Part shown: piece by piece, positions 2,199 to 25,018 of the stretch
Position numbering within the stretch: the first letter of the stretch is position 1
Layout of the letters: every line of letters begins with the position of its first letter
Source of the DNA: Prochloron didemni P4-Papua_New_Guinea
GTDB taxonomy: Bacteria > Cyanobacteriota > Cyanobacteriia > Cyanobacteriales > Prochloraceae
Direction: 5' to 3'
Length of the DNA: 33,737 bases
NCBI GenBank assembly: GCA_000252485.1
Contig: JH611124.1
Coordinates: forward strand, 1-33,737
Notes under the pieces: model-generated
Database searches by the model: none
Seen by the model: the letters and a program-made list of their open reading frames with translations, nothing else
Told to the model about the DNA's origin: nothing
Position numbers and translations under genes: made by a program

Positions 2199-4193
2199 AT
2201 GCCTAGTTCTATTTTTCCTCTCACCGCAGTTGTCGGCCAAGAAGCAATTAAACTGGCTTTGCTTTTGGCAGCCGTAGATCCAGGTTTGGGAGGGGTGGCG
2301 ATCGCCGGTCGTCGTGGCACGGCTAAATCGGTGATGGCAAAGGCAATCCATTCTCTTCTTCCTCCTATTGAAGTTATTAAAGGTAATTTTTGCAATTGCG
2401 ACCCTCTCAACCCAGAAACTTGGGATGACTTGACTGCAGCGGAATGGCATGGGGCGGAGGATCTGCCGACGGAAGTTATTCCTACTCCTTTCGTGCAAAT
2501 TCCCCTGGGGGTGACGGAAGACCGACTGCTGGGTTCTGTAGACGTGGAGGAGTCGGTAAAGCGAGGGGAATCGGTATTTCAACCGGGACTGCTAGCGAAA
2601 GCCCATCGGGGAGTTCTCTACGTGGATGAAGTGAATCTCCTGGACGACCAAATTGCGGAACGCTTACTATCTGTTTTAAGCGAGGGACGGAACCAAATAG
2701 AACGGGAAGGTATTAGCTTTCAGCATCCCTGTCAGCCTTTGCTCTTATGTACTTATAACCCAGAAGAAGGAATGCTGCGGAAGCATTTACTAGACCGTAT
2801 CGCCATCAATCTTTCTGCGGACGGGGTGTTGGCTTTAGACCAACGAGTACAAGCGGTAGACCAGGTGTTAGCTTACACTCGTTCTCCTGGCGACTTTATC
2901 GCTCAATACGGTGAAGATACGGATAGTTTGCGCACGGATATTATTTTGGCTCGGGAATGGCTCAAAGAAGTAAAAATCCAGCAGGAGCAAATTAAATATT
3001 TGGTGGAAGAGGCCATTCGCGGTGGAGTGCAAGGACATCGAGCAGAACTGTTTGCTCTGCGAGTGGCTAAGGCTGCGGCTGCTTTGGAAGGACGGGATTT
3101 AATTACCGCTGAGGATTTGCGTCGGGCAGTGCAATTGGTAATTGTGCCTCGTTCTACTACGGTGGAAGCCCCTCCAGAACAAGCGCCTCCCCCACCGCCA
3201 CCGCCTCCTCAGGAACAGCCTCAAGATGAAGACCGAGATGATGAGGACCAGCAAGAAGAAGAACAAGACGAACAGGAGGATAGAGAAGAAGAACAGGAAC
3301 CTCCTAGCTTGCCGGAGGAATTTGTCTTTGATGCGGAAGGGGTGATTATGGACCCCAGCGTCCTTTATTTTGCCCAGATGATGCAGCGTCAGGGCAAGTC
3401 TGGCAGCCGCAGTCTCATTTTCTCTGACGATCGCGGGCGCTATGTTAAGCCCATGTTACCCAAGGGGAAGGTGCGGCGCATTGCGGTGGATGCTACTTTG
3501 CGATCGGCTGCTCCCTATCAGCAATCTCGACGACGGCGCTATCCTGGGCGCAAGGTAATTGTGGAACAGGGGGATTTGCGTTCCAAGCGCTTGGCCCGGA
3601 AGGCTGGGTCTTTAATCGTGTTTGTGGTGGATGCTTCCGGTTCCATGGCCTTGAATCGCATGGAGTCGGCCAAGGGCGCGGTGTTGCGGTTGCTGACGGA
3701 AGCCTATGAGAATCGGGACCAAATTGCTTTAATTCCCTTTCGGGGGGAAAAGGCAGATGTGTTGATTCCCCCCACTCGTTCCATTTCCTTGGCCCGGCGG
3801 CGGTTGGAACGATTGCCCTGCGGTGGACCCTCTCCTCTGGCTCACGGTTTGACTCAAGCGGTGCATGTGGGCATGAACGCTACTATGTCTGGGGATATCG
3901 GTCAAGTGGCGATTGTGGCTATTACCGACGGACGGGGAAATATTCCTTTGGCTCGTTCTTTGGGGGAAACCATGGATTCAGCAGAAAAGCCGGATATTAA
4001 GGGGGAATTGTTGGAAATTGCGGGGAAAATCAGACTGTTAAAAATGCAGTTTTTGGTGGTAGATACGGAAAAGAAATTTATTTCTACTGGGTTTGGCAAG
4101 GAGTTGGCTCAACAAGCTGGGGGAAAATATTATCATTTACCTATGGCCAATGATAGGGCGATCGCGGCTATGGCTCAGGGGGCATTTTCTTAG
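2199..4193 (+). CDS. chlD: Magnesium chelatase subunit D
   Basis: 664 residues. ChlD partners ChlI and ChlH in ATP-dependent insertion of Mg2+ into protoporphyrin IX, the committed step of chlorophyll synthesis. Residues 1-320 form an AAA+ module: GRRGTAKS is the P-loop region and [10 protein letters not shown] the Walker B. A Pro-rich run and a strongly acidic Gln/Glu/Asp linker follow (about 325-375). Residues 460-664 form an integrin-I (von Willebrand A) domain with the MIDAS motif DASGSMA. Length and order match cyanobacterial ChlD. The start [18 protein letters not shown] agrees with the family, although no strong ribosome-binding site precedes it. It appears monocistronic. Confidence 0.97.
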
Positions 4194-22019: not shown

Positions 22020-23428
22020 TCACTCACCGAAAGCATAATAACGAGGGAAATCCTCTACTTGAAGAATTTGGGAACGTTTTCCAATGGAACCGTAGGAGGG
22101 ATAATCCAGTGGATAAACATTGGCATGGCTCGGCAATTTCTGAATCTTCTTGCTCCGTAAATTAACAATTTCCCAATATGACTCTGGATCGAGGCATTCA
22201 AAAACCGCATCTTCCGAAGATTTAAATCCTCTGAATCTCCCACCAAACTGGGCTCCTTGGCAACTTTGAATATCTAGAGTATCATAGTTATTACTCGCAT
22301 CCACAAACAAAAAAGTATTCCATCTCTCAGTTCCGGAACTCCAATTTTGAGCCACAATTAAATACCTACCATCGGCGGAATATGAGAGAGGATTGCTAAA
22401 ATTGTAATTATCTGTAGCTGGAAAATGTTGAAACTTAACCCTCTCATCCTGCTTGATCGCCATTTTCATTCTGCGGGTTTTAGCTGCTTTACAGCCATAG
22501 CGTTTCAACATAGCCTCAAAATAAACTTTAGTCTTGCTATCAGGAGATTTGAGTTGTTGGGAACGATAGCTAACTTCCGTAGAACCGTGACAGTTTATTT
22601 CTCCCTTACTATTAAATACCTTGAGGTTCGGGTACAAAGAACGAAAAGAATCCTCAATCCATGCAGTTCGGGTTGCCGTATTTATTCGTAAATCGAAAAT
22701 TTGGTAATTTTGTCGTAAGAAAGTGGCAATGGGAATTCCGAAATTTAAGCCTGTGGGTGGGCATTTTTTGCTACCACATTCTAACTCTGCTGTACTGTGA
22801 ATTCCTATTAAACGACCTTGTTGGTCTAATAACTGGCCCCCACCCATGCCCGGTAGACTGGGATTGGTGTAAATTAAGCTATCATCCTCTTGGAGTAGTC
22901 CATGGGAGGAAACCTGATCAATTAATTTTCCTTCCGTAAAGCGAAGTAGAGGAGTTGGTTTCGTTCCTTCCGGAAAACCAGCCAAATAAATCTTAGTTTC
23001 AGGTGCTAAATCTGAATTATCCCCCAACTCTGGAACTGTATATTGATTTTTGCTGACGAACTCTACCACTGCCAAATCTAGATTAGATATTGGTCTGATT
23101 TTGCTGTGATAGTCTTCTGCCTCTATAGTATAGTTTGCCCCATCATGGGTCCGCAAATGGTATTTATTGATATGAGAAACTACTTGTTTGGTGGTGAGGA
23201 CGTAGTAGTTATTGCCGTTTTTCGATACGATGAAACCAGAACCTAAATTATTTTTTCCCCTTGAATGGATACCATGGTCTTTCTGGCAATCTTGGCCACA
23301 GGTGGGGGAGGTTCTAGAGAAATTAGCTCTATTTTTTTGTGCAAATTTATTTGCCATAGCCACCGCCAGGCCAGAATAGCAGTGGTGATAGCTGCAGCAG
23401 CTAGTAAAATACGAATTAATATTTTCAA
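22020..23428 (-). pseudogene. Trypsin-like serine protease homolog, frameshifted and lacking catalytic residues
   Basis: Two frames form one protein. The 5' part (TTG at 23428) gives a membrane anchor, then PPPPVAKIARKTMVSIQGEK. The frame is lost at an A6 tract (23251-23256 on the plus strand); adding one A restores NNLGSGFIVSKNG. The protease domain reads YYVLTTKQVV where a catalytic His is expected (Gln, codon 23184-23186), NLDLAVVEF retains the Asp, and PGMGGGQLLD has Gly in place of the nucleophile Ser (22842-22844). A C-terminal domain of about 240 residues follows. Even with the frame corrected, the protein could not be a normal serine protease. It is either a decaying gene or a pseudoprotease. 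Confidence 0.85.
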
Positions 23429-23550
23429 CTATCTACCACCCTACTGCTCAAGGATTATTTCATCAATTTCGCGCTAATTATAGCCAAATATTTGGCTATT
23501 TTTCTTTGAAGATTGTTAGTGGCATTCATCATTACAGCGCGAATCAACAA

Positions 23551-23658
23551 TTACGGTAATTGGCTAATTGCTTGAATCAAAAACATAGCAAGGGAAAGAG
23601 TGGCAACTGCTTGCATTGTATAGCTTGCTGTCCATTTTAATGTTTTGGCAATTTGCAT
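23551..23658 (-). CDS. 35-residue single-span membrane peptide, paralog 1
   Basis: ATG at 23658, TAA at 23551. GGGAG stands just upstream. The peptide has a short basic start (MQIAKTLK), then WTASYTMQAVATLSLAMFL and the ending ISQLP. One hydrophobic helix covers about residues 14-31. It aligns without gaps to the neighbouring small frame at 23790-23897, with about 22 of 35 identical residues and many silent codon differences, which argues that both are translated genes. Family and function unknown. Confidence 0.6.
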   Translation of the reverse strand: MQIAKTLKWTASYTMQAVATLSLAMFLIQAISQLP

Positions 23659-23704
23659 AGTTTTTTTCTCCCATCAATTGAACTATTGAAGAATTAATCG
23701 GGAA

Positions 23705-23721
23705 CCCTCTGTATCAGAGGG
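23705..23721. terminator. Hairpin between the two small peptides
   Basis: CCCTCTG / CAGAGGG with a three-base loop. It lies between the two peptide genes and could attenuate transcription or stabilise the mRNA. No T-run follows. Confidence 0.4.
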
Positions 23722-23789
23722 ATGACCAAGTTTTGGGAGCGAACAAAATTTATTTTAACACGGAATTTTGATTACTTAGGTTACAGCTG

Positions 23790-23897
23790 TCAAGGTAATT
23801 GGCTGATTAACTGGATGGAACAGATGGCCAAGGAAAGAGTTATTACGGCTTGAATTGTATAGCTAGCAGTCCATTGGAAAATTTTGCTTGTCAGCAT
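23790..23897 (-). CDS. 35-residue single-span membrane peptide, paralog 2
   Basis: ATG at 23897, TGA at 23790. AGGAG lies eight bases upstream, a strong initiation signal. It reads MLTSKIFQ, then WTASYTIQAVITLSLAICS and the ending ISQLP. Same length and pattern as the paralog at 23551-23658. Both are preceded by a [G]GGAGAAAAAA-like leader, so the duplication included the ribosome-binding site. A perfect CRP-type palindrome is centred 107 bases upstream of the ATG. The function is unknown; small one-helix peptides of this kind often act as subunits or regulators of membrane complexes. Confidence 0.65.
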   Translation of the reverse strand: MLTSKIFQWTASYTIQAVITLSLAICSIQLISQLP

Positions 23898-23955
23898 GGT
23901 TTTTTCTCCTGTTCTCTTTTATCAATCTTCTTAAAATTGAGATAAAGTTTCCGTG

Positions 23956-23990
23956 AATTAGATCTCGAGAAACGAATCAATTAGATCTCT
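23956..23990. repeat. Direct repeat AATTAGATCTC in the peptide upstream region
   Basis: The 11-mer AATTAGATCTC occurs twice, about 23 bases apart start to start, between the CRP-type site and the start of the 23897 peptide gene. It could be an operator; this is only a pattern. Confidence 0.35.
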
Positions 23991-23993
23991 TTT

Positions 23994-24015
23994 CTATGTG
24001 ATGGAGATCACATAG
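23994..24015. promoter_or_regulatory. Perfect CRP-type (SyCRP1-like) binding palindrome
   Basis: CTATGTGATGGAGATCACAT plus AG is a perfect inverted repeat with 9-bp arms. Its core TGTGA-N6-TCACA matches the consensus of E. coli CRP and of cyanobacterial SyCRP1/AnCrpA cAMP receptors. The only genes transcribed away from it are the two 35-residue peptides; the RbgA gene ends upstream on the same strand. Confidence 0.75.
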
Positions 24016-24175
24016 GGGAAAGATTCACCAGATCGCTCAGGAATCTAGTTTGCTTTCGTAGATTGTAATGGGTGATTCCCTCCATCTAAACTGTATATTT
24101 TCGTAGTCTAGCGCCTCTTTCAATTTTTGGCAATGTTCAGTAATTTTGCTGAAAACAACTAAGCCAAAATGCTGA

Positions 24176-25018
24176 TTATTGTGGAGGAAACTCTAAGGCA
24201 ATTGCCCCCATCAATCCTGTACGAAAATCGTTTAATAGCTGACGTGCAGTTCTTTCTTTATCGGCGTTATAACTAACCGTCGCTAGATGATAAATATATT
24301 CTTCCCCGGTCATCAATTTCGGAGCTACTTGATAACGAGATTGTAATATTTTGTCACAATTTAATTCCAGCAATAGGTCTACTAAAGCTGCTGCTATGCG
24401 CTGATTGTCGTAAGCTGCTTCCCCAATATCTTCGCAAATAGCTAACTTAATAGCATTTTGCCTATCTTCTAATTTCCAGGGGATTACTCCCGGAGCATCT
24501 AGTAGCTGTATTTCCTTAGAGATGCGCACCCATTGTAATTGGCGAGTGACTCCCGCTCTCCTAGCACTAGCAACAGCTTTGCGCCCCACCAAGCGATTAA
24601 TTAAGGCAGATTTGCCTACATTGGGCAAGCCAATAACCACTGCACGCACTGGACGAGGCTGCATCCCCCGCTGTTTGCGCCTGAGGTTCATTTGGACTCC
24701 TGCTAGTTGAGCTGCTTTTTTCAGTGCTTTAATACCCTTTCCTTCTTTTCCATTGGTGCAATAAGGCTGTTCTCCTCGCTCCTGAAACCAGGTCAACCAC
24801 TCTTGGAGTTGGTTTGTAGGAATCATATCCATGCGGTTGAGGACCAAGATTCGGGGTTTGCTACCAATCCAAGAAAGTATTTGGGGATGGTGAGAAGCTC
24901 TGGGAACTCTAGCATCTAGCACTTCCAGCACTACATCTACCCGCTTGAGCTGCTCTTTTAATTGCCGTTCTGCTTTGGCAATATGTCCGGGATACCATTG
25001 AATCGGAGGAGTGGTCAT
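24176..25018 (-). CDS. ylqF: Ribosome biogenesis GTPase RbgA/YlqF
   Basis: 280 residues. A circularly permuted GTPase required for late maturation of the 50S subunit. The permuted motif order is visible: G4 as LNRMD (about 60), then G1 GLPNVGKS (about 129), the conserved TR of G2 (GVTRQLQW) and G3 DAPG (about 175). IQWYPGHIAKAERQLKEQL at the N-terminus is the family signature. The C-terminal helical domain (about 185-280) binds rRNA. The G4 motif has Arg instead of the common Lys, which is tolerated in this family. It appears monocistronic. Confidence 0.95.
   Translation of the reverse strand: MTTPPIQWYPGHIAKAERQLKEQLKRVDVVLEVLDARVPRASHHPQILSWIGSKPRILVLNRMDMIPTNQLQEWLTWFQERGEQPYCTNGKEGKGIKALKKAAQLAGVQMNLRRKQRGMQPRPVRAVVIGLPNVGKSALINRLVGRKAVASARRAGVTRQLQWVRISKEIQLLDAPGVIPWKLEDRQNAIKLAICEDIGEAAYDNQRIAAALVDLLLELNCDKILQSRYQVAPKLMTGEEYIYHLATVSYNADKERTARQLLNDFRTGLMGAIALEFPPQ

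Follow-up and report, generated by a model that had tools for sequence, protein, structure and literature searches.

Complexes of photosynthesis, respiration or transport are often tuned by membrane micropeptides, a kind of molecule that is routinely overlooked. Accessory micropeptides of the CydX/KdpF/AcrZ type are short helices that dock on a large membrane protein, and type I toxin peptides (i.e., TisB, Ldr and Ibs) are short hydrophobic helices that may occur in tandem copies. In Synechocystis, HliR1, Norf4 and other small proteins of 31 to 37 amino acids (aa), each with one predicted transmembrane helix, escaped annotation, and the expression of some of them is stress-regulated (PMC5126843). 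The peptides described here form a new family of this known kind of molecule, i.e., bacterial membrane micropeptides. The family resembles HliR1 and Norf4 in its length, its one predicted transmembrane helix and its having been overlooked by annotation, but it shows no match to the parts of those sequences that are readable from the primers printed in PMC5126843, and most of the order's sampled genomes give no match to its profile, which further sets it apart. PsbJ, PsbT, PetL and PetN also share its length and single helix; however, the family gave no profile or PDB-sequence match and its distribution is patchy. The resemblance to the CydX/KdpF/AcrZ type lies in how the peptide is proposed to work, with no Pfam or NCBIfam sequence match, whereas TisB, Ldr and Ibs differ from the family, which shows neither antisense-promoter evidence nor a mobile distribution and has a constrained helix face.

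The window analyzed here is a stretch of 33,737 nucleotides, i.e., a 33.7-kb contig from the 5.7-Mb genome of Prochloron didemni P4-Papua_New_Guinea, which falls in the same genus as two Paraprochloron genomes (Prochloraceae). The initial annotation had reported two 35-codon frames preceded by ribosome-binding sites; both are present, on the minus strand (Table 1). The peptides encoded by genes 1 and 2, each in 35 codons followed by a stop, are MQIAKTLKWTASYTMQAVATLSLAMFLIQAISQLP and MLTSKIFQWTASYTIQAVITLSLAICSIQLISQLP, respectively. They share 66% identity at the protein level and 70% at the DNA level, and the DNA repeat that spans the two copies (112 nt, 72%) is limited to the coding sequence plus the ribosome-binding site. 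Codon positions 1, 2 and 3 account for 5, 8 and 18 of the differences between the copies, respectively; dN/dS is 0.16, and the original description of the differences as silent or conservative is thus correct. The frames had also been regarded as too short for gene callers; as 108 nt exceeds the usual minimum gene length of Prodigal (90 nt), such genes are easily missed but not strictly excluded.

Table 1. Features of the peptide locus and its flanks (positions in the window)
Feature	Position	Strand	Remarks
Trypsin-like protease gene	about 22020-23428	minus	flanks the peptide pair
Peptide gene 1, 35 aa	23551-23658	minus	orthologous to the lone copy that each Paraprochloron genome (two) carries
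Shine-Dalgarno GGGAG of gene 1	23668-23672	minus	~9 nt ahead of ATG
Gene 1 upstream block, conserved in the genus	23659-23757	minus	-10-like TAAAAT (23752-23757), then GTTCGCTCCCAAAA and leader
Peptide gene 2, 35 aa	23790-23897	minus	tandem paralogue; neither Paraprochloron genome has it
Shine-Dalgarno AGGAG of gene 2	23906-23910	minus	~9 nt ahead of ATG
Candidate -10 TCTAAT	23957-23962	minus	34 nt after CRP box
Exact CRP box TGTGATGGAGATCACA	23997-24012 (palindrome 23994-24015)		~100-115 bp ahead of gene 2
YlqF-type GTPase gene	24176-25018	minus	flanks the peptide pair

No further copy of the peptide gene was found elsewhere in the window's own genome. The flanking protease gene is split by a frameshift near 23252-23282 and its N-terminal membrane anchor sits in a different frame; the homologue at locus L047 (Paraprochloron SP5CPC1) is intact, and the split gene represents either a pseudogene or an assembly error.

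We searched 391 Cyanobacteriales genomes with two profiles, one built from the first eight members (A1) and one from 16 members (A2). Clear matches were obtained in 17 of these genomes, distributed over six families, with A1, and in the same 17 with A2, for which E-values ranged from 1e-8 to 1e-19; the next candidates had E-values of 2.5e-4 or worse and mostly sit within other frames, and the recurrence of the family is far beyond what chance would give. By family (labels are those of the anonymous genome index), the peptide gene is present in 3/3 genomes of the window genus (f1), 9/10 genomes of the family comprising Roseofilum and a second genus (f5), 2/2 Prochloraceae MAGs (f24), 1/50 genomes of f8 and one genome each of f11 and f18. 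A class-wide sample of 390 genomes yielded no member besides the window's own, and searches of phages, plasmids and viral contigs yielded nothing. As far as sampled, the family is confined to Cyanobacteriales. One pattern match in a Micrarchaeota bin (L041) contains an internal stop and was rejected as a chance match.

Complete frames, available from 16 genomes, comprise 32 to 35 codons, with the stop directly after an invariant proline (P35); M1, T10 and Q16 are also invariant, and W9 and I31 nearly so. Among Roseofilum copies, dN/dS is 0.05 to 0.11 for all pairs of distinct sequence, with synonymous distances up to 1.2. Outside the window the gene occurs once per genome and keeps its position in Roseofilum. 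The initial annotation had named an absence of homologues elsewhere as its refutation; homologues under strong purifying selection are instead found by profile search in six cyanobacterial families, and they support its reading of the frames as two paralogous translated genes. That the two frames are protein-coding is, in our view, practically certain. As their relatives are under strong selection and match no known family, both are real genes of an unnamed small-protein family, and their expression is suggested by selection, ribosome-binding sites and conserved promoter elements. At one further locus (L061 3309-3540, genome G126) the peptide gene is broken after approximately codon 22 by DNA that begins with GTGCGAC and resembles the 5' end of a group II intron; the contig stops there, Rfam gave no match, and a 106-nt query did not recover the 3' half of the gene from that genome.

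Gene 1 is 87 to 89% identical to the Paraprochloron gene in DNA, and its upstream block is conserved as well. As the synonymous distance between genes 1 and 2 (1.44) far exceeds that to Paraprochloron (0.29 to 0.35), the duplication is probably older than the genus split, with gene 2 lost in Paraprochloron; the alternative is faster evolution of gene 2.

The claim that these are membrane peptides agrees with their hydrophobicity, their predicted single helix and the periodicity of their conservation, the membrane location itself being a prediction. The Kyte-Doolittle mean over 19 residues is 1.5 to 2.0 in each member, the octanol-scale sum is favourable, and net charges range from 0 to +3. AlphaFold2 with A2 predicted one helix covering residues 2 to 32 (mean pLDDT 89.5; pTM 0.46, as expected for a single helix), and the peptide probably spans the membrane once as a single hydrophobic helix. 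Conservation periodicity peaks at 100 degrees per residue (permutation P = 0.002 to 0.016, depending on the stretch and set chosen), which indicates that one helix face is constrained. This face carries T10, Y13, A17, T20, G/A24, L27/I28 and I31, and the small residues at positions 17, 20 and 24 are suited to helix packing. A constrained face of this kind is the pattern that a helix docked on a protein partner would show.

Searches of Pfam, NCBIfam, PADLOC and PDB sequences gave no significant match (for PDB, none up to an E-value of 10). Among the 16 members searched against Pfam, the sole match was an insignificant one to CAAD (0.072), and matches to PHROGs were insignificant as well (E-values of at least 0.089); with neither a phage family match nor a phage location, nothing places the peptides among phage holins or small lysis proteins. 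The same Pfam search recognized the 39-aa PsbJ at 3e-22, and shortness alone therefore fails to explain the silence of Pfam.

The motif TGTGAN6TCACA is the consensus bound by cyanobacterial CRPs, and at the promoters concerned a sigma-70 -10 box follows the CRP box after about 22 bp (PMC2633013). The window contains one such site, as compared to 0.03 expected; five occur in the whole window genome, and nine and three in the two Paraprochloron genomes. In 3/3 genomes of the genus a site lies no more than 354 bp upstream of a peptide gene (offsets of -115 from gene 2 in the window, -312 in L046 and -194 in L047), and between species the arms are kept while the spacer letters differ. The peptide gene thus carries the upstream box kept between species by which a putative member of a CRP regulon would be recognized. 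In L047, TATAAT lies 34 nt after the CRP box, the same distance as TCTAAT in the window, as compared to the ~22 bp of the rule; L046 is rearranged. The -10-like hexamer of the gene 1 block is likewise TATAAT in Paraprochloron. A CRP-family gene is present in Paraprochloron LD05 (L159 10234-10851; 52% of the genome, 2.0 Mb, was read), but its frame stops just after the recognition helix and its C-terminal end is therefore missing or mutated. Separately, TGTGAGAGCACTCACA occurs five times in a Paraprochloron genome (G001; e.g., C1:311761), where the copies probably lie within a repeated element.

In other lineages a different palindrome, TCACCC-N4-GGGTGA, was found upstream of the peptide gene, i.e., at six Roseofilum loci (L049, L051, L053-L055 and L057) and at L050, in an unrelated genome of another family. 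L049 carries a variant with one arm altered (TCACCCAATTAGGTGA, minus strand), and in Roseofilum a further GGGTGATG often follows 13 nt on from the palindrome. In 300 kb of background sequence from two of these genomes the palindrome did not occur, nor did it in the remainder of 176 kb of neighbourhoods. As in Roseofilum it coincides with the end of the preceding gene or lies close to it, it may have a terminator role there. Both candidate operators on the promoter side, i.e., the CRP box and the palindrome, are rare elsewhere in the same genomes.

No constant neighbour or partner gene was found linked across families; as the neighbouring genes differ between families, the peptide gene is probably autonomous. 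A trypsin-like protease gene lies downstream in the window and L047. In Roseofilum (e.g., L053), the peptide gene is followed on the same strand by genes for a universal stress protein and a TPM-domain protein, at +200 and +766 from the peptide start, respectively; universal stress protein genes also occur near the peptide gene in the window and L058, which we consider a lead only. At L050 (about 2484-3598) a same-strand run of ycf48-psbE-psbF-psbL-psbJ (plus rubredoxin) precedes the peptide gene, which comes ~430 nt after psbJ.

Our best reading of these data, to which we assign an even chance, is that a single-helix peptide under CRP control docks on a larger membrane protein and serves an accessory or regulatory function. 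The peptide would insert as a single transmembrane helix whose K/R-W end is cytoplasmic, its conserved small and polar face would pack against the larger protein, and the cell would make it on demand as an accessory or regulatory subunit. In Prochloron and Paraprochloron, the box ahead of gene 2 would be where cAMP-CRP switches transcription, with gene 1 additionally having its own conserved promoter-like block, and the two variants produced by the duplication could serve two partners or two conditions. More tentatively, the peptide may be a cAMP-CRP-controlled regulator of a membrane complex, duplicated in the window lineage and placed under another regulator elsewhere. Docking is argued against by the lack of a partner gene linked in all lineages and by a patchiness (e.g., 1/50 genomes in f8) that is unusual for a core complex subunit, and CRP control by the early stop of the CRP-like frame in L159 and by a -10 spacing of 34 instead of ~22.

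The main rival sees in the peptides type I toxin-like or stress-induced molecules that, made only under stress, would permeabilize and depolarize the cell's own membrane in the manner of TisB and Ldr. Short hydrophobic peptides they are, and their length, single hydrophobic helix and net charge of 0 to +3 fit this account; their small size, their tandem copies in an intergenic spacer and the patchy distribution leave it some weight. In 3/3 genomes of the genus the gene 1 leader CUCCCA can pair with the UGGGAG ribosome site, but this pairing is no stronger than in shuffled leaders, which do equally well in 15 to 29% of trials, and sequestration of the ribosome site was rejected. A promoter scan of 23300-24250 found no antisense (plus-strand) promoter-like site and no excess over chance. 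Plasmid, phage and viral copies are lacking, genomes outside the window carry one copy each, in a position kept in Roseofilum, and the face is strongly constrained and the C-terminus fixed, all of which makes a toxin-like role unlikely.

Alternatively, the peptide may be a dedicated small subunit of a complex of photosynthesis or respiration (photosystem II, cytochrome b6f or NDH-1); its size and topology are like those of PsbJ/PetL-type subunits, and both the psb genes upstream at L050 and the nearby TPM-domain gene in Roseofilum would suit this reading. We nevertheless consider this assignment improbable, given that PsbJ was recognized where the peptide had no Pfam or PDB match and that the peptide is missing from most sampled genomes performing the same photosynthesis. 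A role as a leader or regulatory peptide, with the next gene controlled through translation of the peptide, could be imagined from the universal stress protein gene that lies on the same strand in Roseofilum, ~90 nt downstream, and the protease gene next in the window and L047; as the downstream genes vary between families, such a role is very unlikely, and the whole peptide is conserved, C-terminus included, while Rfam found no credible element in the window or spacer (the sole match being a chance microRNA model). That the frames are a non-coding repeat or chance frames, as their coincidence with the 72% DNA repeat might suggest, is already refuted by the coding signature, i.e., dN/dS well below 1 and a frame kept in six families with the stop always after the same proline.

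The docking micropeptide that we favour belongs to a family whose coding signature is clean, whose conserved face is defined and for which there are candidate regulators. As the family occurs in both Roseofilum and Prochloron-type symbionts, both the partner and the cAMP control of the peptide can be tested directly, and the CRP box conserved in one genus provides a handle on cAMP signalling in Prochloron-type symbionts. If the proposed role is true, the peptide would regulate a membrane complex in symbiotic cyanobacteria of the Prochloron type, a function that had gone unrecognized.
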